The translations under genes and the position numbers were made by a program. Positions 35,829-49,118 of a DNA stretch of 64,000 nucleotides are shown in pieces (within the stretch, counting starts at the first letter, position 1; every line of letters begins with the position of its first letter). The notes under the pieces are model-generated. The model ran no database searches. It was given only the letters and a program-made list of their open reading frames with translations, and was not told the origin of the DNA. Where the stretch lies: contig NAEP01000034.1 in assembly GCA_002529645.1 (NCBI GenBank), forward strand, positions 1 through 64,000, written 5' to 3'. This stretch comes from Candidatus Lumbricidiphila eiseniae (GTDB lineage: Bacteria > Actinomycetota > Actinomycetes > Actinomycetales > Microbacteriaceae).

Positions 35829-37211
35829 ATGACCTTCCCACCGCAACCGCTGAGTCCTCTCGATGGTCGCTACCGTGAGACGGTCGGAGCGCTCGGGGAA
35901 TTCCTCTCCGAGGCGGGCCTCAATCGTGCCCGAGTTTATGTCGAGGTCGAGTGGCTCATCTGCCAAACCCAGCAGCGGCTGTTCGGCACAACACCACTCT
36001 CAGACACGGCACAGCAGCAGTTACGCTCACTCGTCACTGATTTCGGCCCCACCGATATCGCAGAACTAGCATCCCTGGAGGCGACCACCCGGCACGATGT
36101 CAAGGCCGTTGAGTATTACCTTCGACGCCGAATCGAGTTGCACGGCCTCGGACACATCGCAGAACTCATTCATTTCGCCTGCACGAGCGAAGACATCAAC
36201 AATCTCGCGTACGCACTGACAGTTCGGGATGCCCTTCACACCGTGTGGCTTCCGCGCTTCGATGCCGTCATCACGCGATTGACCGACCTTGCCCACAAGT
36301 ATGCGGATGCCGCGATGCTCTCGCACACCCACGGCCAACCCGCCACACCCTCGACGATGGGTAAGGAGCTCGCAGTGCACGCGTACCGACTGACACGGGT
36401 CCGCGCGCAGATCGCGGGATCTGAGTTTCTCGGCAAGTTTTCCGGCGCAACCGGCACGTACTCGGCACACGTTGTCGCAGCCCCGGAGGTCGCATGGCTC
36501 GATATTTCTCGCGGGTTTGTCGAGTCGCTCGGCCTGCAGTGGAATGGATTGACCACCCAGATTGAGTCGCACGACTGGCAGGCCGAGCTCTACTCTCGGA
36601 TCGCTCACGCCAATCGAATCTTGCACAATCTGGCCACAGATATCTGGACCTACATTTCCATCGGGTATTTTCGACAGATCCCGATCGTGGGTGCCACCGG
36701 TTCTTCCACGATGCCGCACAAGATCAACCCGATCCGGTTCGAAAACGCCGAAGCCAACCTTGAGCTCTCCTGTGCCGTTCTAGATTCGCTCGCCGCAACA
36801 CTCGTCACGAGTCGACTACAGCGCGATCTGAGCGACTCCAGTGCTCAGCGCAATATTGGTCTGGGCTTCGGACATTCCCTGTTGGCGCTTGATAATCTGT
36901 GCCGCGGCCTGAATGAAATCGACCTGGATCGCAGCGCGCTCAGTGCTGATCTTGACACCAATTGGGAAGTGCTCAGCGAAGCAATCCAAACTGTCATTCG
37001 AGCGGAGGTTGTTGCCGGACGCTCTACAATTTCCGATCCGTACACGCTCTTAAAAAATCTCACTCGTGGCCAGCGTCTCGGTGCTCCCGAGTTGGCCACC
37101 TTTGTGTCCGGCCTAGAAATTGGGGATGCCGCGAAGCAGCGCTTGCTCGCGCTTACTCCTGCCGCATACACCGGGCTGGCGGCCGAGCTCGCCGCGACGC
37201 TGGAGCGCTGA
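35829..37211 (+). CDS. purB: adenylosuccinate lyase
   Basis: A 460-residue fumarase/aspartase-superfamily lyase. It has the signature GSSTMPHKINPIRFENAEAN, plus HFACTSEDINNLAYALT and SHTHGQPATPSTMGKELAV with catalytic His. It catalyses two steps of purine synthesis, SAICAR to AICAR and adenylosuccinate to AMP. The ATG at 35829 follows AAGGAATTTACCC. It is convergent with the downstream minus-strand gene, with 26 bp between. Confidence 0.95.
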   Translation: MTFPPQPLSPLDGRYRETVGALGEFLSEAGLNRARVYVEVEWLICQTQQRLFGTTPLSDTAQQQLRSLVTDFGPTDIAELASLEATTRHDVKAVEYYLRRRIELHGLGHIAELIHFACTSEDINNLAYALTVRDALHTVWLPRFDAVITRLTDLAHKYADAAMLSHTHGQPATPSTMGKELAVHAYRLTRVRAQIAGSEFLGKFSGATGTYSAHVVAAPEVAWLDISRGFVESLGLQWNGLTTQIESHDWQAELYSRIAHANRILHNLATDIWTYISIGYFRQIPIVGATGSSTMPHKINPIRFENAEANLELSCAVLDSLAATLVTSRLQRDLSDSSAQRNIGLGFGHSLLALDNLCRGLNEIDLDRSALSADLDTNWEVLSEAIQTVIRAEVVAGRSTISDPYTLLKNLTRGQRLGAPELATFVSGLEIGDAAKQRLLALTPAAYTGLAAELAATLER

Positions 37212-37237
37212 CCGCCCACTCCGGCGTAGCCGAGCGC

Positions 37238-37558
37238 TTACTCCGGTGTGGGGGGTTGCTTTTCTTCGCGTTCTGCACGATCTTCGGCGGCTTCCTTCGC
37301 CAACGCCGCAAGTTCCGAGCCATCCGGCTTGAAAACCATGGCCACGAGCGCGGTCACCATGAGCACAACGATGAACACAACTCCCGCTGCAATGAGAGTG
37401 AGGTTCCACTGCCGGGTGGCACCAAAAACGATCACTCCGACGAACACGGCTGCGATCGCCGCTCCACCAACGTACTCAACGGGACGAAGCAATTCGCGAC
37501 GAGTCGGTGGTGTCACACCGTCGGTGGCCACACCCGGCGAGTCGTCCCCGGCACTCAC
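37238..37558 (-). CDS. small membrane protein with two helices
   Basis: 106 residues from GTG 37558, which overlaps the upstream stop as GTGA. Two membrane helices (GGAAIAAVFVGVIVFGA and LIAAGVVFIVVLMVTALVAMVF) are followed by a charged Glu-rich tail (EAAEDRAEREEKQPPTPE). No specific function is recognised. It is the last gene before the convergent purB. Confidence 0.7.
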   Translation of the reverse strand: MSAGDDSPGVATDGVTPPTRRELLRPVEYVGGAAIAAVFVGVIVFGATRQWNLTLIAAGVVFIVVLMVTALVAMVFKPDGSELAALAKEAAEDRAEREEKQPPTPE

Positions 37559-38151
37559 GTCACACCGATTCTTTCTGTCGCCCACCGTACGCTGAGGCCA
37601 CCAATCAGCTGAATGACGCCCACAATGGCAAAATACGCTGTCACCAACCCGACGGCGGTAAGGGGCCCACACGGAACCGCACAGAATATGACCGCAAGCA
37701 GGAGCGTACACCCCCCGACGACAAACGCGTCTCGAGAAACACCTCGGCGCAGGTAGCCGATGACACACTCCAGGCCACCGACAACGCCCGCCCATAATCC
37801 CACGAACACGACAAAAAAGTGCTCGCCACCGGGCAGAGTAAGTGCCACAGTGCCAACGGTAACCGACACCACAGCGCTCGTCATGATGAGTGACCGGATG
37901 CCGCGAGCCGCCGCTGATCCGAGGGCAAGAGCACCCCCGACCAGTCCCGATACGACCGCCCATATTCCGAACGCGAAGAGTCCGAGGCTAAGCCAGCGCT
38001 GACCGTCAGTATCATCAGATACCCGGGAGAAGGTCAGGATAAGCGGCGGAACAACGGCGATTCCACCCCGCACAACGAGCGTCACCCAGCTCGGAACCTC
38101 CACCGTGTGAGTATCACCCGCTCTCGCCGTCGCAGTTTTTTCGTCGATCAC
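37555..38151 (-). CDS. six-helix membrane protein, DUF308/HdeD-like
   Basis: A 198-residue protein with about six evenly spaced hydrophobic helices (LVVRGGIAVVPPLILTF, FFVVFVGLWAGVVGGLE, VGLVTAYFAIVGVIQLIGGL). The helix pattern resembles HdeD/DUF308 proteins; function unknown. Its stop overlaps the next GTG, so the two are coupled. The 130 bp upstream (38152-38281) shows nothing else. Confidence 0.7.
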   Translation of the reverse strand: MIDEKTATARAGDTHTVEVPSWVTLVVRGGIAVVPPLILTFSRVSDDTDGQRWLSLGLFAFGIWAVVSGLVGGALALGSAAARGIRSLIMTSAVVSVTVGTVALTLPGGEHFFVVFVGLWAGVVGGLECVIGYLRRGVSRDAFVVGGCTLLLAVIFCAVPCGPLTAVGLVTAYFAIVGVIQLIGGLSVRWATERIGVT

Positions 38152-38281
38152 CGAACCATCCTAGGTGTACCCGGCCACTACGTTGGTGTCAGTCGGCTGG
38201 TGGGTGGTTTGTTTCCGAGCGCGGTGTGGCGTCTTTGCGCTGAACCGCGGAGTGGACGACACCTCTTGCGTTCTTTGCTTG

Positions 38282-38473
38282 CTACGAACGCGTGCGGCTG
38301 CGCGTGATGAAGGTCACCACAGCAGCTATCACACCGACAACTACGGCGACGAGCCCACGAACGACTATGTGCCAGTCAGTCCACAGCGCCAGAGCGATGC
38401 TCACCAGGAGGATCGTAACAAACAATGCTGCTGTGGCGGCGCTGTCACCCTTTTGCTTCCATGATGCTGTCAT
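38282..38473 (-). CDS. 63-residue membrane protein at the end of the bacteriocin cluster
   Basis: Starts at ATG 38473 after GGAAT. Two hydrophobic helices (AATAALFVTILLVSIALAL and IVVRGLVAVVVGVIAAVVTF) and a basic end (TRSRTRS). It follows the ABC permease by 31 bp. Small two-helix proteins are common accessories in bacteriocin loci, often for immunity, but nothing in this sequence proves it. Confidence 0.6.
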   Translation of the reverse strand: MTASWKQKGDSAATAALFVTILLVSIALALWTDWHIVVRGLVAVVVGVIAAVVTFITRSRTRS

Positions 38474-38504
38474 TGAGGATTCCTTCGTTTTGGTTAGGGT
38501 TCGG

Positions 38505-39308
38505 TCAGTTGGCATCACGGCGGAGAAAAATCGTGCACGCAACAAATGTAGTTGCGAGTGTCCAGCAGAGGAGCCCGAGGAGCCCGGTCACGAGGTTCCC
38601 CGAACCTTCAGTTGGGAGCGTTGACACGGCGAACGCCTGCATCAGCAACGGTGCCGGAGTCCATGCACTTGCACCTGCGATCACAGACCCCGCTCCGCCG
38701 GGTACCGCCGCTGCGCCAACGGCCAGTGCAAGCGGAAGGAGCACCAGAAGCGCAAGGTAGACGAGCACAGCCGGGGTCGATCGGCGGAGGATGGTGCTCA
38801 GCTCAAACGAGATCAGCGCAATTAACCCGGTGCCTAGCACGTGCACGCCAATCGCCAAGCCCGCAAGTTCGAAAGCGCTCACCGTGCTATTCGTCGAGAT
38901 GATTAGACCGACTCCGGCAACGGCGGTCGAGCAGACGAGGGTGCCGAGCATTCCCAGCACCACTGTAGTCAGCGCACGAGCGGCGAACAGCCGCGGACGT
39001 ACAGTCGTGCGCAGCATGGTGAACGCTAGTCGTCCCTCCGCATCGCGACCCACCGCGATGGTGATGATGAGTCCGAAAACCAAGGCGAAAGTGGTCGACG
39101 AAGCCTCAATGGGTGCACTCAAGACCACATGACTTGGCTCCCGGGCGATGGCATTGAGCACGAGAAGGGCAATCGTTCCGGTCGCGATGGCGGCGGCGGC
39201 GGCGATAATCGTACCCACGCAAGTCCCGCCCGGGAGCCATAGCGCGCGCCACTCGGCCTTGACGACGGACCCCAGATTCTGCGTCGCGGTCGTATCGTCC
39301 GACCTCAT
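38505..39308 (-). CDS. ABC-2 type permease, bacteriocin export/immunity
   Basis: A 267-residue protein with six helices (TCVGTIIAAAAAIATGTIALL, TTVVLGMLGTLVCSTAVAGV, VYLALLVLLPLALAVG). It overlaps the ATPase gene by four bases, so both form one transporter. In leaderless bacteriocin loci such two-part transporters export the peptide and protect the producer; that role is inferred from context. Confidence 0.75.
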   Translation of the reverse strand: MRSDDTTATQNLGSVVKAEWRALWLPGGTCVGTIIAAAAAIATGTIALLVLNAIAREPSHVVLSAPIEASSTTFALVFGLIITIAVGRDAEGRLAFTMLRTTVRPRLFAARALTTVVLGMLGTLVCSTAVAGVGLIISTNSTVSAFELAGLAIGVHVLGTGLIALISFELSTILRRSTPAVLVYLALLVLLPLALAVGAAAVPGGAGSVIAGASAWTPAPLLMQAFAVSTLPTEGSGNLVTGLLGLLCWTLATTFVACTIFLRRDAN

Positions 39309-40195
39309 GCTTGGGTTCCGCTCTTCGCCAACCGCCCGAAGTAGGTTTCTTCGAGTGATCTCGAAACCGTTTGGAGGTGCAGAACGTCTAGCCCGGCCTC
39401 GAATACGATCCGTCCGACCTCAGGCGTAGTTGTCCCCGAGACAATCAAGGCTCGCCCGCTCTCAGTGAACGCCAGTCCGTGGGCACTCAATGCGTGTCTG
39501 GCACTTTCCACGCTCGAAACCTCGACGAGAACTCGCTCTGCTTCACGTTCCGCCACAAACTCTGCGAGCGTGCCCTCAGCCACGACCCTGCCTCGATCTA
39601 GCATAACGATTCGGTCTGCCATCTGTGAGAGCTCCGACATCACGTGCGACGAAAGTAGCACGGCTGTGCCGTGCTCGGCGACCTGCCTCAAATGGTGTCG
39701 GATCCAATGGATGCCGTCGGGATCCAACCCGTTGAGTGGTTCATCCAGCATCAATGCCCGAGTCCTAGGCAGTAGCGCGACGGCTAGGCCGAGGCGCTGT
39801 TTCATCCCCACCGAAAAGGTCCGGATGCGTTTGGTCGCGGTCTGATCGAGACCGACGACCTCCAGCAGCTCGTCGGCATCCCGATGCGGCATCCCGCGAG
39901 TGTCACACACGTAGCGCAGAACACCCCGGGCCGTCGCCCGACCAGGCAACTCCTCGGACGAAAGGTAAACCCCCAATAGGCCTGAAGTATCGAGCCCTCG
40001 CGTCTCACGCCCGTCGATCCGCACGTTACCCGAATTCGGCATTACCAGCTGCGCGATCGCGCGGAGAACAGTTGATTTTCCTGCGCCATTTGGTCCAACG
40101 AAGCCGGTAACGGCACCGTCAGGCACTGTGAAGCTCGCCTGATCCACCGCGAGCACTCGTCCATAGGACTTGCTGAGATTGACCACCTCGATCAT
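39305..40195 (-). CDS. ABC transporter ATPase, bacteriocin export/immunity
   Basis: A 296-residue ATPase of the drug/bacteriocin type: Walker A GPNGAGKST, signature FSVGMKQRLGLAVALL (VG in place of SGG, as common in this group), Walker B ALMLDEPLNGLDPDG, switch His in LLSSHVMSELSQMAD. The C-terminal 80 residues form the accessory domain typical of BcrA-like proteins. It overlaps both neighbours by four bases. Confidence 0.88.
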   Translation of the reverse strand: MIEVVNLSKSYGRVLAVDQASFTVPDGAVTGFVGPNGAGKSTVLRAIAQLVMPNSGNVRIDGRETRGLDTSGLLGVYLSSEELPGRATARGVLRYVCDTRGMPHRDADELLEVVGLDQTATKRIRTFSVGMKQRLGLAVALLPRTRALMLDEPLNGLDPDGIHWIRHHLRQVAEHGTAVLLSSHVMSELSQMADRIVMLDRGRVVAEGTLAEFVAEREAERVLVEVSSVESARHALSAHGLAFTESGRALIVSGTTTPEVGRIVFEAGLDVLHLQTVSRSLEETYFGRLAKSGTQA

Positions 40196-41700
40196 GCTTC
40201 TCCTCTTAGAAGCGGCACGCATGTTCGCGCTGACGGTGTCGGCCGCCCCGTCACGATCTTCATAGCCATCACGATGTCATCAACCGCTGAGTCACTCATC
40301 ATCAGGCCGCTGCGATGTCGCGGAGCGCCTGCGAAGTAGGTCAACTTCACAAGGCGAAGGGGCAGACGCCTCAACCGACGCTTACGAAGGAGGTGTATCG
40401 CGTCACTGCGCACTCGCTCCTCGTGATCCTCCGTGAGGTGCCAGTGCGCGACGACTACTGATGCGGTCGCCTCAAAGCGGGTACCCAGCAGTCGAGCGAA
40501 GACACATCCAGCGAGGAAAAGCACGAGCGCCGCAAGCACAGAGAGCCACGGTGTCGATGACAACGCCATCACGCCCCACCAAACGGCGACCGTCGAAGTG
40601 GCACACAGCGCGAGCACCCCCGTCGCTCGCAGTGCGCCCGGGGTTCCATTAGAGCTAAGGATGCTGGACTGAACAAGATCTGGATCGAGTATCGTTAATG
40701 CCTCGCGCACTGCCTGCCGAGGGATCGTGGGAAGCACGAGGTTCTGCCCAAGTCCGCCAATGCCATCTGATGTAATCAGCGAGACACGCACGCGATCGCA
40801 AATCATCTCGAGCAAATTCCGACGAACAATCACGCCGACGAGCGCATCGCCTGTCACGACTCGAGTCGTCCGATCAAGAAGACCGTACTGGAGCTCTAAG
40901 GAATCGTCTCGTTGCCGGATGACCAACCTGCCATATCGAACGAATGTCACAGCGATCGCACCTGCGGCTATGAAGGTGCCAACGATCAAACCGGCGGCAA
41001 TCATGTTGTCGTGAGCCCAGGTGAACGCCGCATCATCCACGCCGAAACGCGACAGCAAGTCGTATCCAGCGAACGCAGTGCTGAGGGCAATGAAAACGAC
41101 TTTCCCCTGAACGATGCACGAAAGTAGGAGCTCACCCGTGTTTGGTCGATACTGTTTCACGCCGCCGAGCAAAACAACGCCCCGAGGAGCTTCCGTCGAT
41201 GGCTCGCTCACCTGCTGGAGTTCTTCGCGTGCATCCGCAAGCACAGCGCCTGCAAGCCTGCGAGCTCGCTCCACTTCGTCGCGAAGTCTCTCGACCGTAT
41301 GGCGACCCACGCCGTCTAGGCGGATTTGTGTCTCAGCATCACCTGCGGGAAGCAACCTCACAACCGTGAGTCCGAGGAGTCGGTGTGCCCAAGGTTCGTC
41401 AGCCTCGATAACGCGGATATCACGCCAGGCGACGGCATCCCGCCGGACGCTCAGCATTCCTGTGGTCGCCACAACTCCCCGTTGTTCGATGACGAAACGC
41501 GTGGTCGCCCAGAAGTATATCGGAGCAACTAGTCGCACGCCGATCAACATAACCGCGACTGTGCGTATCCATCCGGTAATCTGAGTCGGAGGTTGCAAGG
41601 ATGCCACGTGGATGACGATGATCATTCCGACAACAGCGGGCAAACCGCGAAGCCATTCCGCGAGAATCGAACGGCGCGGCAATCGTCTACCCTTCAGCAT
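40192..41700 (-). CDS. large bPH2-domain membrane protein (YdbT-like)
   Basis: A 502-residue protein with paired membrane helices followed by bacterial PH-like (bPH2) domains. FVIEQRGVVATTGMLSVRRD and ELQYGLLDRTTRVVTGDALVG show the characteristic strands that start a domain, and a third, weaker copy lies near residue 430. Helices near residues 22-55, 215-265 and 385-420 separate them. YdbT/YdbS-type pairs accompany aureocin A53-like leaderless bacteriocins, where they are linked to immunity. It overlaps the smaller bPH2 gene by 14 bases. Confidence 0.8.
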   Translation of the reverse strand: MLKGRRLPRRSILAEWLRGLPAVVGMIIVIHVASLQPPTQITGWIRTVAVMLIGVRLVAPIYFWATTRFVIEQRGVVATTGMLSVRRDAVAWRDIRVIEADEPWAHRLLGLTVVRLLPAGDAETQIRLDGVGRHTVERLRDEVERARRLAGAVLADAREELQQVSEPSTEAPRGVVLLGGVKQYRPNTGELLLSCIVQGKVVFIALSTAFAGYDLLSRFGVDDAAFTWAHDNMIAAGLIVGTFIAAGAIAVTFVRYGRLVIRQRDDSLELQYGLLDRTTRVVTGDALVGVIVRRNLLEMICDRVRVSLITSDGIGGLGQNLVLPTIPRQAVREALTILDPDLVQSSILSSNGTPGALRATGVLALCATSTVAVWWGVMALSSTPWLSVLAALVLFLAGCVFARLLGTRFEATASVVVAHWHLTEDHEERVRSDAIHLLRKRRLRRLPLRLVKLTYFAGAPRHRSGLMMSDSAVDDIVMAMKIVTGRPTPSARTCVPLLRGEA

Positions 41701-42217
41701 TGGCTGGCCTCCCGTTCGGCATAATCTCGGTACCGCTGTCCTGATGCCCCTGTACTTCAGCTCGCAAGCGTATGGCATCGTCAAGAAACAGAGGGCCTAA
41801 CGCTTCAAAATGGGATATTGCCACGAAACGGATCCTCGCCAATCCAAATAGTCGAAGGATTGGACCCTGAACTATTGCAACGTTCAAAATGCGGTCGGTA
41901 GGCACGATAATATCCTCGGCAAAAAGGATTCCACGCCGGATCTGCACAAACCCCTCATCGATATCGTATGAGGTGTTGGAGATTCGCATCCTGTCGATGA
42001 AAGGTATCTCGATGGTGAGTGCTACAAGCACCAGAACCCCAGCCACAGTGAACAACACCGGTCTCCACATATCGGGCGCAATTGTGAAAACGATTGCAAC
42101 GAAAATTGCCACGGCTACGCCGACGTCAATGCACGTGCGCGTGCGCGCATACGCGATGGAGCGCGCTGGTAAGCCTCGCTGTAAAGTCGTGGGCGCCTGT
42201 TCGTTATGAGCCGACAT
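41687..42217 (-). CDS. small bPH2-domain membrane protein (YdbS-like)
   Basis: A 176-residue protein: two helices (VGVAVAIFVAIVFTIAP, PVLFTVAGVLVLVALTIEI), then a bPH2 domain with SYDIDEGFVQIRRGILF and IIVPTDRILNVAIVQGPILR. ATG 42217 is chosen for GGTGGG just upstream; an in-frame GTG at 42235 lies in a duplicated 16-bp stretch. It is the first gene after the bacteriocin hairpin and forms a YdbS/YdbT pair with the next gene. Confidence 0.78.
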   Translation of the reverse strand: MSAHNEQAPTTLQRGLPARSIAYARTRTCIDVGVAVAIFVAIVFTIAPDMWRPVLFTVAGVLVLVALTIEIPFIDRMRISNTSYDIDEGFVQIRRGILFAEDIIVPTDRILNVAIVQGPILRLFGLARIRFVAISHFEALGPLFLDDAIRLRAEVQGHQDSGTEIMPNGRPANAEG

Positions 42218-42227
42218 TACCCACCAT

Positions 42228-42266
42228 TCAATCACCCTGAGGCCTAGCGGTCAATCACCCTGAGGC
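42228..42266. repeat. 16-bp direct repeat before the bPH2 gene
   Basis: TCAATCACCCTGAGGC occurs at 42228-42243 and 42251-42266. Read on the minus strand each copy carries GTGATTGA, so the alternative GTG start is duplicated; the upstream copy soon meets a stop. Confidence 0.8.
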
Positions 42267-42304
42267 GTGGTGGTGGGGCCCAAGATGAACCCCACCACCA
42301 CGCC
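42264..42304. terminator. perfect 15-bp hairpin after the bacteriocin gene (attenuator)
   Basis: GGCGTGGTGGTGGGG (42264-42278) pairs fully with 42290-42304 around an 11-base loop. It starts 17 bases past the bacteriocin stop and lies before the bPH2 genes. There is no T-run, so partial termination or mRNA stabilisation is likely, giving much more peptide mRNA than immunity mRNA. The hairpin is plain; the role is inferred. Confidence 0.8.
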
Positions 42305-42321
42305 AACCACTGCTTCTTCGC

Positions 42322-42510
42322 TCAGGCTAAGCCCAGTATCTGCATAATCCAATGGATGATGGTTGCTCCTGATACACCCTTTTCGAGCCAGGAAAGGACT
42401 CGTTTCCAGTTTTGCCTGACCCACTGGGAGATGGCACCAATGATGCCGACTCCCAAACGCCACATTTGAGCGGCGAGCCATGCGAGGAAGCGGAGAACTG
42501 CTCCAGCCAT
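42322..42510 (-). CDS. leaderless bacteriocin, aureocin A53/lacticin Q-like
   Basis: A 62-residue cationic, Trp-rich peptide beginning MAGAVLRFLAWLAAQMWRLG and ending WLEKGVSGATIIHWIMQIL, then GLA. The C-terminal half (WKRVLSWLEKG...IIHWIMQILG) parallels lacticin Q (WANKGKILDWLNAG...WVVSKIKQILG) in Trp, Lys, Leu and Gly positions. There is no double-Gly or Sec leader, as expected for leaderless types, where formyl-Met is kept. It is about ten residues longer than the classic members. AAAGGAAT precedes the ATG at 42510. Neighbouring bPH2 and ABC genes match known leaderless loci. It should permeabilise Gram-positive membranes. Confidence 0.8.
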   Translation of the reverse strand: MAGAVLRFLAWLAAQMWRLGVGIIGAISQWVRQNWKRVLSWLEKGVSGATIIHWIMQILGLA

Positions 42511-42629
42511 TATGTATTCCTTTCAGAGGTGATTTCGATAACCGCGAGAAGGCATTCCGCCGTGTCACGGTTATCTACGTTACTCACCACCGGCATCGCC
42601 AGGCAGCCTCCAAAGTATTCGTTCGGTGC

Positions 42630-42663
42630 TACATATGTACTCTTTTCTAGTACTTTGGTATAC
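42630..42663. promoter_or_regulatory. inverted repeats upstream of the bacteriocin gene
   Basis: TACATATGTA (42630-42639) is a perfect palindrome; GTACT (42637-42641) and AGTAC (42649-42653) form an inverted repeat with seven bases between; GTATAC follows at 42658-42663. They lie just after the LuxR gene, about 130 bp before the bacteriocin start, where an activator site would be expected. Confidence 0.45.
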
Positions 42664-42673
42664 ATACTTCTGT

Positions 42674-43342
42674 TCACTGCAGATCCTCCGGCTGAGTCAG
42701 ATTGTGCGGGTTTGCGTGCATAGCTTTGAGGACAACTTGCACGCGATCGCGCACACCCCATTTTGCCATGATCCGTCCGAAGTGCGATTTCACTGTCTGC
42801 TCAGCGAGAAACAACTTGCCGGCAATCTCTTGATTGGTCATTCCCAGCAGCAGCAGACTGACTATAGATATCTCTCGCGCAGTGAGGCCCTCGAAACAGT
42901 AAGACGAGTTGATCTCTCTCACCGAGGGTTGAGAAGTTGAACCGATAAGACCACGAAGGACCGCCCGAGACACATACAGGTGACCTGCGGCGACCTCGCG
43001 GACGCTTGCGAAGAGCTCGCCATCTGTGGAATCCCATCGCACGACACCTGCTGCTCCTGAAGCGAAGCACTCTATGGTGAGATCGTCCCCGACGGCTGTC
43101 ACGGCAATGATCTGGCGATCGGGCTTTTCGCGGACTAACCGCTTGATTTTTTCCGGTGCCGACATCAAAGCGTCAGTAGTATCACACACAATAACACTCG
43201 GCTCAGGCTCCCGCGTACCGCTCGGTCGTTGTGCTTCAAAGCTACGTGCTGTCACGGTGAAATCTGGGCATGTGGCAAGGAGGCTGCTGAGCGCCTCGGC
43301 CCGAAGAATCGCATCCGCGACAACTAAAATTTCCAATTTCAT
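42674..43342 (-). CDS. LuxR-family (NarL-type) regulator of the bacteriocin cluster
   Basis: A 222-residue regulator. Residues 1-120 look like a receiver domain (LEILVVADAILRAEALSSLL, SVIVCDTTDAL) in which the usual early acidic pair is reduced, so phosphorylation is doubtful. The C-terminal GerE helix-turn-helix is complete (LTAREISIVSLLLLGMTNQE, then VKSHFGRIMAKWGVRDR). It lies upstream on the same strand as the bacteriocin gene with no partner kinase nearby, and is the likely activator of the cluster. Confidence 0.85.
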   Translation of the reverse strand: MKLEILVVADAILRAEALSSLLATCPDFTVTARSFEAQRPSGTREPEPSVIVCDTTDALMSAPEKIKRLVREKPDRQIIAVTAVGDDLTIECFASGAAGVVRWDSTDGELFASVREVAAGHLYVSRAVLRGLIGSTSQPSVREINSSYCFEGLTAREISIVSLLLLGMTNQEIAGKLFLAEQTVKSHFGRIMAKWGVRDRVQVVLKAMHANPHNLTQPEDLQ

Positions 43343-43766
43343 ATGCCCTCAGCATTCTTCGACTGAGCCTACAGCGATTCGAGGGTCGTGGTTGGCGCGA
43401 TCAGGCCGGTGTCAGCACCGATCGCCTCCAGCTGGTCGATGACGAACTCCCGATCGACTCTCGGTCATGGGCGGCAAACGGGGCAACTGACATTGAAACT
43501 TCCGACTTTGTCAGACTTAGTTGTTGTTCCCAGGGACGTTGTGTGGGGTGATGGGTAGGGACCTCTTAGTATCGATATGGGATAGAAAAACTCATTCGAT
43601 GTCAGGAGATTCTCATGTCCTACGCTTGTTGTTCCCACGGAGGTCGTATGCAGCATGGCGTGGGTCGATGGGCGAGTGCGCCGGGCGCCCACTGCCGAAT
43701 CTCACCCCTCAGTAAGACCCACCGCCCGACCCCGCATCTTCTCCGACCTGGGGCAACGATCTTGTC
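43343..43766. other. 424-bp intergenic with degraded sequence
   Basis: Near 43372-43460 the minus strand reads EFVIDQLEAIGADTGLIAPT and a stop, which looks like the tail of a lost gene I cannot name. TTGTTGTTCCCA occurs at 43521 and 43626 with related flanks (105 bp apart), possibly remains of a small mobile element. No complete gene is seen. Confidence 0.45.
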
Positions 43767-45140
43767 TCAGGAATCCTTCATGTCGGCGAATCGCGAATAA
43801 TGGCCGAGGAAGGCCACTGTCAGCGTGCTGGTCGGACCATTGCGGTGTTTGGCAACGATAAGGTCGGCCTCGCCCGCACGCGGACTCTCGCGCTCGTATA
43901 TTGCCTCGCGATGCAACAGTATGACAACGTCGGCGTCTTGTTCGATTGAACCAGACTCACGCAGGTCGCTGAGCACAGGAATCTTGTCGGCGCGGGTTTC
44001 CGGGCCACGGTTGAGCTGAGAAAGCGCAATGACGGGAACATTGAGTTCCTTGGCCAGAAGCTTGAGGGCACGCGAGATGTCGGACACTTCCTGTTGTCGA
44101 TTCTCAACCCTGCGCCCGCTCGTCATGAGCTGAAGGTAGTCAATGACAACCAGTCTCAACCCGATCCGCTGCTTCAGTCGTCGACATTTCGCTCGAATCT
44201 CGACGAGGGTCATGTTGGGGGAGTCGTCGATATAGAGCGGAGCGCTGTTGATTCGACCCTGCGTTGCCGCAATCTTGGTCCAGTCACGATTGTCTTGAAG
44301 CCCCTTGCGCATCGATTGCAACGGCACGGATGACTCAGCTGAGAGCAATCGCATAGCGATTTCACTCTTTCCCATTTCGAGAGAAAACAGGATGGCCGGC
44401 AGGTCATGGCCGATAGAAGCGGCACGAGCAAAGTCCAGGGCAAGCGTGGATTTTCCCATGGCCGGACGGGCCGCAATGATGATCATCTGACCCGGATGGA
44501 ATCCGTTGGTCAGGTCATCCAGCTTGGCAAACCCCGTCGGTACACCGGTGAACTTCCCATCGGTACCCCGGGCCGCCTGAATGTCATCAATGGCAACAGT
44601 CACCGCCTCGGAGAGCGGGATGTAGTCCTCCGTGTCCACCGAGCCGGTCACCGAATAGATCTCGGCCTGGGCCGAATTCACCAGCTCGGTAACTTCGCCT
44701 TCTCCGGCGTAACCAAGCTGCACTATTCGGGTGCCCGCCTCTACGAGGCGGCGAAGCACGGCCCGTTCAGCCACGATTGAGGCATAGTAACCGGCGTTCG
44801 CCGCGGTGGGGACGAGGCTTGTCAGAGTGTGGAGGTACTCAACACCGCCGGCACGCTGAAGCACTCCTCCCTTCGTCAGGGTGTCGGTGACGGCGATAAC
44901 GTCGGTCGGCTCGCCGTGCGAGTACAGGTCAAGCACGGCGTCAAAAATTATGCCGTGCTTGGGAACGTAAAAATCGTGTGTTCGGAGTGTTTCGCTGACA
45001 TCAGCGACGGCGTCCTTAGACAGCATCATGCCACCCAGGGCACTCTGCTCCGCGAGCAGGTCGTGCGGCGGAACCCGTTCACTGCGCTGCGGTTCAACGT
45101 CGCTGAACGGCGTAACCAGATCGAGATGCGCAACCGACAA
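43767..45140 (-). CDS. dnaB: replicative DNA helicase DnaB
   Basis: A 457-residue DnaB. The N-terminal domain starts PPHDLLAEQSALGGMMLSKD. The RecA-like domain has Walker A AARPAMGKSTLALDFAR, LFSLEMGKSEIAMRLLSAES and Walker B LRLVVIDYLQLM, and ends FLGHYSRFADM. No intein is present, unlike some actinobacterial dnaB genes. I choose TTG 45140 (LSVAHLDLV), nine bases after GGAGG, over an ATG at 45188 with no ribosome site. It unwinds DNA at the fork. Confidence 0.93.
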   Translation of the reverse strand: MSVAHLDLVTPFSDVEPQRSERVPPHDLLAEQSALGGMMLSKDAVADVSETLRTHDFYVPKHGIIFDAVLDLYSHGEPTDVIAVTDTLTKGGVLQRAGGVEYLHTLTSLVPTAANAGYYASIVAERAVLRRLVEAGTRIVQLGYAGEGEVTELVNSAQAEIYSVTGSVDTEDYIPLSEAVTVAIDDIQAARGTDGKFTGVPTGFAKLDDLTNGFHPGQMIIIAARPAMGKSTLALDFARAASIGHDLPAILFSLEMGKSEIAMRLLSAESSVPLQSMRKGLQDNRDWTKIAATQGRINSAPLYIDDSPNMTLVEIRAKCRRLKQRIGLRLVVIDYLQLMTSGRRVENRQQEVSDISRALKLLAKELNVPVIALSQLNRGPETRADKIPVLSDLRESGSIEQDADVVILLHREAIYERESPRAGEADLIVAKHRNGPTSTLTVAFLGHYSRFADMKDS

Positions 45141-49077: not shown

Positions 49078-49118
49078 GAAAGAGGGCCGGACGTAGAGGC
49101 AACGTCCGGCCCTCTTTC
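49078..49118. terminator. strong bidirectional terminator
   Basis: A perfect 17-bp stem (GAAAGAGGGCCGGACGT at 49078-49094 with 49102-49118) and a seven-base loop, bordered by A and T runs. It lies downstream of the winged-helix gene on minus. The stretch 49119-49264 shows nothing else. Confidence 0.85.

Follow-up and report, generated by a model that had tools for sequence, protein, structure and literature searches.

Genes and signals of the locus

The stretch of DNA considered here, called the window in the following, comprises 64,000 nucleotides of Candidatus Lumbricidiphila eiseniae, a member of the Microbacteriaceae (positions 1 to 64,000 of contig NAEP01000034.1, assembly GCA_002529645.1). 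Seven genes, all on the minus strand, occupy its positions 38282-43342. Judged from sequence comparison and structure prediction, they very probably serve, as a chromosomal cluster, the biosynthesis of a single-peptide leaderless bacteriocin akin to aureocin A53 and lacticin Q. The original prediction had named a regulator, a peptide, two bPH2 proteins, an ATP-binding cassette (ABC) ATPase, a permease and a small two-helix protein, and all of them are in place.

The first gene (42674..43342) encodes a LuxR/NarL-type regulator, recognised by its GerE domain (E 1.8e-16); its receiver domain is degenerate and stays, with 21.2 bits, below the Response_reg cut-off of 30.2. The core peptide of 62 residues, aureocin A53/lacticin Q-like and devoid of a recognisable leader, follows at 42322..42510. 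Next come two bPH2 membrane proteins. The YdbS-like one (41687..42217) has 176 residues from the ATG at 42217, a GTG at 42235 being another possible start, and probably has a role in export or immunity. The YdbT-like one (40192..41700) has 502 residues from the ATG at 41700, where it begins before the YdbS gene has ended. Pfam bPH_2 matches YdbS with 43.5 bits and YdbT, in two stretches, with 42.1 bits (cut-off 22 bits). The ABC transporter ATPase (39305..40195; ABC_tran E 5.8e-26, likewise above the Pfam cut-off) starts at the ATG at 40195 after GAGGAG, the listed open reading frame opening at 40222; its best NCBIfam model is TIGR03740, the lantibiotic-protection ABC ATPase, at 178 bits and thus below the cut-off of 309.75. 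The ABC-2-like permease of 267 residues (38505..39308) is a less clear case. The assignment is based on gene position, hydrophobic sequence and relatives; NCBIfam yields no match and Pfam only one at chance level. The last gene (38282..38473) encodes a protein of 63 residues with two membrane helices by inspection, probably an immunity protein.

Two inverted repeats bracket the peptide gene. Between it and the YdbS gene lies a hairpin (42264..42304, minus strand) of 15 perfect pairs, with 11 nucleotides between the arms and no U tail. Upstream of the ribosome binding site of the peptide, the second (42537..42575, minus strand) has arms of 17 nucleotides that are 82% complementary. A 23-nucleotide repeat in two tandem copies, 87% alike, adjoins the hairpin directly 5' of the YdbS gene (42228-42273). 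Between the regulator and the peptide gene, a short frame ending with TAATG at the peptide start was tried as an extra gene; it is not counted, because its stop is not kept in the related cluster of Microbacterium sp. SA39 (see below). No Rfam family reached its gathering score in the window.

The purB-dnaB interval, 37211-43767 in the window, measures by match positions about 3 to 48 kb in ten genomes of the genus and gives the impression of a site where gene content varies. In five single-contig genomes among these ten, purB, the homologue of the gene at 37555-38151 and dnaB flank a cluster-free interval of about 3-13 kb, in which the cluster genes have no match beyond a generic ABC ATPase, present in two of these genomes. 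The guanine-plus-cytosine content is 53-55% for YdbS, peptide and regulator, 58-63% for the other cluster genes and 61.5% for the window. An acquisition of the cluster at a variable site would fit these data.

The peptide and its relatives

The core peptide reads MAGAVLRFLAWLAAQMWRLGVGIIGAISQWVRQNWKRVLSWLEKGVSGATIIHWIMQILGLA. With six tryptophans, a charge of +4.6 and a pI of about 12 (the program's upper limit), it is small, cationic and Trp-rich, as expected of aureocin A53-like peptides; its calculated mass, without formyl, is 6973 Da. Its start is well fixed, because GAAAGG immediately precedes it and the frame extends upstream by no more than four codons.

Its family was approached in several ways. 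The window peptide matches NCBIfam NF033881, the aureocin A53-like family, with E 8.6e-6 and 25.3 bits (curated cut-off 27). A profile of five actinobacterial peptides, that of the window included (A5), ranks lacticin Q first in the PDB (4.2e-7), BacSp222 second and third and epidermicin sixth of 9 rows; all five peptides match NF033881 at E≤1, the best with E 4.8e-9. When a row from Parageobacillus thermoglucosidasius is added, the first five of 42 PDB rows are lacticin Q (2.1e-10), two BacSp222 entries, epidermicin and aureocin A53. The AlphaFold model of the peptide, with a predicted local distance difference test (pLDDT) score of 87.4, packs four to five helices into a compact bundle, and Foldseek gives aureocin A53 and lacticin Q as its best matches. 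A four-helix bundle had been expected in the original prediction. Taken together, profiles and model place the 62-residue peptide very probably among the relatives of aureocin A53 and lacticin Q.

An independent test made use of the neighbouring YdbS gene. A profile was built from the peptides of the window, Leifsonia and Clavibacter only, while the loci of SA39 and M. aurantiacum were fetched via YdbS. This three-peptide profile recovers the peptide of SA39 (83.4 bits, E 1.6e-24) and that of M. aurantiacum (21.0 bits, E 5e-5). In 26 loci with other YdbS-like genes (87,380 bases, 1,553 frames of at least 20 codons), neither it nor A5 finds any match at E≤1. By these searches, the observation is more than chance.

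Some points weigh against the proposed reading. Taken alone, the window peptide stays 1.7 bits below the curated cut-off of NF033881, no Pfam model matches it, and phmmer with this single sequence finds nothing in the PDB. Aureocin A53 is absent from the PDB rows of A5 (E≤0.5), and two designed repeat proteins outrank epidermicin there. The Foldseek matches have weak E-values, the best being 1.7, and bundles of helices are easily matched. The surplus at the N-terminus could be taken off, a leader having been judged by inspection only. Finally, the peptide may be recent and could be silent, because only one of 60 genus genomes, the window's own, contains it.

The N-terminus deserves a closer look. 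It had been described as some ten residues longer than in the classic members and free of a leader. The surplus over lacticin Q is indeed about nine residues, and no leader motif is recognisable by inspection. Residue 6 of lacticin Q and residue 6 of aureocin A53 align at profile positions 14 and 15. Ahead of the part aligned with lacticin Q, the peptides of the window, SA39 and Leifsonia, hence of three genera, share the pattern M(A)GxxLRFxxWLxxQ. The Clavibacter peptide has 57 residues; that of M. aurantiacum has 66 and a different start. Met16 as an internal start is conserved in neither SA39 nor Leifsonia.

Of course, such an extension invites the idea that the peptide is matured further, either by cutting off a short leader or by circularisation as in the circular bacteriocins, whose bundle fold is the same. 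The conserved surplus would suit this idea, as would a weak PDB match (E 0.52) of the profile with the P. thermoglucosidasius row to NKR-5-3B, a circular bacteriocin. Leaderless and circular bacteriocins are also structurally alike according to a published description. Yet among nine locus proteins, to which the search was confined, no DUF95/SpoIIM-type protein is found at E≤10, and no protease is recognised in the cluster. Moreover, the first residues belong to a helix (3-14) in the model, and the best matches in sequence and fold are linear leaderless peptides. Further maturation is therefore improbable, and a linear, leaderless product remains the preferred reading.

Related clusters, hairpins and regulator

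YdbS-like proteins as such are common: 314 of 398 genomes of the family have one at E≤1e-8. Apart from the three query rows, only the YdbS of a single genome, G228 (112 bits), stands clear of the rest (at most 64 bits). A scan of genome contigs with the single YdbS sequence gave no match; with a YdbS alignment it gave four loci, those of Microbacterium sp. SA39, Leifsonia sp. ALI-44-B, M. aurantiacum and Clavibacter michiganensis subsp. tessellarius DOAB 609. The peptide itself is rare. In the 398 family genomes, a peptide profile (A1) matches only the three rows from which it was built, and NF033881 has five matches, one above the cut-off and two weak ones, in G190 and G326, taken as chance; in the loci of these two, ten query proteins find nothing but a generic ABC ATPase, in G326. 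As chance we also regard six weak class-wide A1 matches (E 0.001-0.008, two with an internal stop) and a match in G720, for which the locus L082 scores E 0.68 with the peptide profile.

The cluster of SA39 corresponds to that of the window gene for gene, from the regulator through peptide, YdbS, YdbT, ABC ATPase and permease to the two-helix protein. Local identities are 55% for the regulator, 53% for the peptide, 59% for YdbS, 51% for YdbT, 67% for the ATPase and 57% for the permease; the small protein reaches 79% over 39 residues. Leifsonia has peptide, YdbS, YdbT and ATPase, then a permease-like frame (by inspection; no tblastn match to the window permease), with the small protein gene convergent and the regulator divergent. 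In Clavibacter the same four genes are followed by a permease, which in the equivalent place is 32% identical to that of the window over 196 residues, and by a membrane protein without a match to the small protein. M. aurantiacum has peptide, YdbS and YdbT and then, on the opposite strand, an intact-looking response regulator and a histidine kinase (by inspection); its 10.4-kb locus has no match to the ABC genes of the window. In alignment, the window peptide is 40-52% identical to those of SA39, Leifsonia and Clavibacter and 25% to that of M. aurantiacum.

More distant clusters exist. A 9.2-Mb actinobacterial genome (G704, L083 5811-6065) has a peptide above the NF033881 cut-off (32.8 bits) and divergent relatives of YdbS and YdbT. 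A plasmid of P. thermoglucosidasius (L020), found via YdbS, carries, by its annotation, genes for two PH proteins, an ABC ATPase and a permease and, in divergent orientation, one for a peptide of the aureocin A53 family; tblastn E-values with the window proteins are 1.8e-10 for YdbS, 2.3e-8 for YdbT and 8.6e-44 for the ATPase, and 0.009 over 33 residues for the peptide. Searching the plasmid collection for the peptide gave no match at E≤1.

G228 is a special case. At L055 7167-9329 it has YdbS, YdbT and a 72-residue two-helix relative of the small protein, adjoined by protein-kinase genes (by inspection). The small-protein match is weak alone (tblastn E 0.048); in alignment, the identity to the window protein is 39%, as compared with 51% for Leifsonia and 67% for SA39. 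No ABC match is found at this locus, and neither the three-peptide profile nor A5 detects a peptide. The peptide is present in five of the six close YdbS loci, the window counted. Because the window and the four other close loci all have the peptide beside YdbS, the G228 genes read best as an orphan immunity set. This one genome suggests that YdbS, YdbT and the small protein may suffice for the protection of a non-producer. Related clusters that keep the bPH2 and ABC genes and lack the peptide would have spoken against the original prediction; G228 presents such a case by half, lacking, so far as detected, the peptide but the ABC genes as well.

One may ask, then, whether the window cluster is likewise mainly a resistance module of YdbST-like and ABC proteins, with a peptide gene that is no longer made or used. 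The G228 set and the rarity of the peptide in the genus would be in line with that. The peptide frame, its Shine-Dalgarno sequence and both flanking hairpins are, however, in place, and the peptide is conserved in SA39, Leifsonia and Clavibacter, though poorly in M. aurantiacum. We regard a mere resistance module as quite unlikely and continue with a functional bacteriocin cluster.

A prominent characteristic of these clusters is a strong hairpin shortly 3' of the peptide gene, found in all six actinobacterial clusters examined. In the window its z-score is -6.0 for 42240-42330 (200 shuffles) and -3.5 for the 90 nucleotides after the stop (60 shuffles). The four other Microbacteriaceae clusters carry it at the equivalent position, with unrelated sequences. 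The perfect stems of Leifsonia, Clavibacter and M. aurantiacum have 13, 12 and 15 pairs, with z-scores of -4.1, -4.0 and -4.6. In SA39 (z -6.2) the printed fold shows a stem of 19 pairs, two of them G-U, and a scan for perfect stems does not find it. G704 has 16 perfect pairs about 40 nucleotides past the stop. The L020 plasmid has no comparable stem 3' of its peptide gene. Scanning twelve stretches (209,702 bases) for perfect stems of at least 12 pairs with loops of 3-14 yielded 16, five of them hairpins of peptide clusters and two in the window. This corresponds to about 0.007 expected per 90 nucleotides, the true background being higher because gene ends are richer in terminators. The window's only other such hairpin lies at 49078-49118 (17 pairs, loop 7).

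The stem-loop 5' of the ribosome site is shared less widely. Over 170 nucleotides (60 shuffles), z is -3.4 in the window, -5.7 in SA39 and -2.9 in Leifsonia; the structure is absent in Clavibacter (-0.1) and M. aurantiacum (-0.8). Because the stems keep their shape and not their sequence, they are likelier RNA structures than a shared operator. The hairpin at 42264-42304 may be an attenuator, a terminator or a protector of the mRNA end. Promoter and terminator scans gave sites no more numerous than in shuffles. A literature search on stem-loops and terminators of leaderless bacteriocins led to one paper, on enterocin DD14 transcripts. The post-peptide hairpin suggests a common design, in which the peptide is dosed over the immunity genes, and offers a simple added criterion for finding such clusters.

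The regulator was read by alignment to that of M. aurantiacum, at the positions of the receiver site (acidic pair, Asp, Lys). The Lys is replaced by Trp in the window and SA39 and by Ala in Leifsonia. The window and SA39 lack one residue of the first acidic pair and keep the Asp that Leifsonia has lost. The window protein thus lacks the complete receiver site of phosphorylated NarL-type regulators. No histidine kinase was seen by inspection among the frames of 36-48 kb, where no dedicated kinase search was made. The regulator may exert its control without phosphorylation.

Proposed working and known systems

Sequence family, predicted fold, gene order, conservation and the hairpins are shown by the analysis. 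We infer secretion, activity, division of labour and regulation, as well as a peptide that requires no processing. The regulator would switch on the operon, and the peptide would be translated in its final, N-formylated form, fold as a compact cationic helical bundle and permeabilise the membranes of competing Gram-positive bacteria. The hairpin just past the stop would favour an abundant short peptide message, with a smaller share of transcripts running on into the export and immunity genes. By analogy, the two bPH2 proteins and the ABC transporter would bring the peptide to or through the membrane; the transporter may also clear it from the producer's own membrane, and the 63-residue protein would add immunity. 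The analogy is drawn from published leaderless systems. Deletion of the PH-domain proteins DdE and DdF is described to block export of enterocin DD14, so that the toxic peptide stays inside, and the membrane protein DdD to confer immunity. For lacticin Q, LnqEF is reported as the least immunity unit, supported by LnqBCD (PMC10311245). How leaderless peptides are exported and how the producer survives is still being worked out. The comparison of complete clusters with the G228 set names a minimal set, YdbS, YdbT and the two-helix protein, with a directly testable immunity role.

A main role away from rival bacteria, for example as an elicitor of plant responses in the manner of AMEP412 or as a signal that the regulator senses, is very unlikely: four of the five A5 peptides do match the AMEP412 family NF040841 at E≤1 (best E 4.9e-6), but the window peptide does so weakly (17.2 bits, cut-off 45), the bacteriocin family matches better, and the bPH2 and ABC genes suit export and immunity. 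The NF040841 matches hint at a kinship of elicitor and leaderless bacteriocins; the word "bacteriocin" is not found in the AMEP412 paper (PMC6661057).

Whether the bacteriocin cluster belongs to a distinct actinobacterial subtype is a more tentative matter, with doubt slightly outweighing confidence. Such a subtype would comprise about nine conserved extra N-terminal residues, a hairpin-bracketed peptide message, control by a degenerate response regulator that has no partner kinase, and a two-helix protein dedicated to immunity, which would cooperate with the bPH2 pair and persist in a non-producer as part of an orphan set.

Compared with the classic members, lacticin Q, aureocin A53, BacSp222 and epidermicin, the likeness by profile covers the last ~45 residues, and that of the predicted fold extends to lacticin Q and aureocin A53. 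These peptides have 50-53 residues instead of 62, with an N-terminus some 9-10 residues shorter. All four are known from Bacillota. The geobacillin 6 cluster geo6ABCDEF of P. thermoglucosidasius (PMC10311245) has, like the window, a lacticin Q/aureocin-like peptide, YdbS-like and YdbT-like proteins, an ABC protein and permeases in this order; it differs by two permease genes in the published table and by the lack of a regulatory gene on its short contig. The L020 plasmid stems from the same species and has the same genes. Unlike that of the window, its peptide has 48 residues, no N-terminal extension and a gene divergent from ydbS. The lactolisterin BU operon (PMC6249370) shares with the window a strong terminator-like hairpin directly past the structural gene, and LsbB expression is cited there as depending on such a terminator; an ABC gene follows instead of YdbS, and the hairpin sequences are unrelated.

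The original prediction had implied that an actinobacterial system of this type is new. This does not stand, because actinomycetotal aureocin A53-like clusters were described in 2024 by Hourigan et al. (PMC11580447), who mined 757 peptides, 97 of them from Actinomycetota (mean length 55 there). Two synthetic ones of 52 residues, arcanocin and arachnicin, were active. Several of these clusters, of the same phylum and kind as ours, contain PH-domain proteins and ABC transporters, and that of Brevilactibacter a DNA-binding response regulator. Nearby bPH2 proteins and/or an ABC transporter are common there but not universal; the window has both. The main text of that paper does not mention "terminator", Leifsonia, Clavibacter or Cryobacterium. 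Actinomycetotal aureocin A53-like clusters are thus already known; what is added here is the hairpin behind the peptide gene, the regulator with its degenerate receiver and the putative immunity module of YdbS, YdbT and the small protein.

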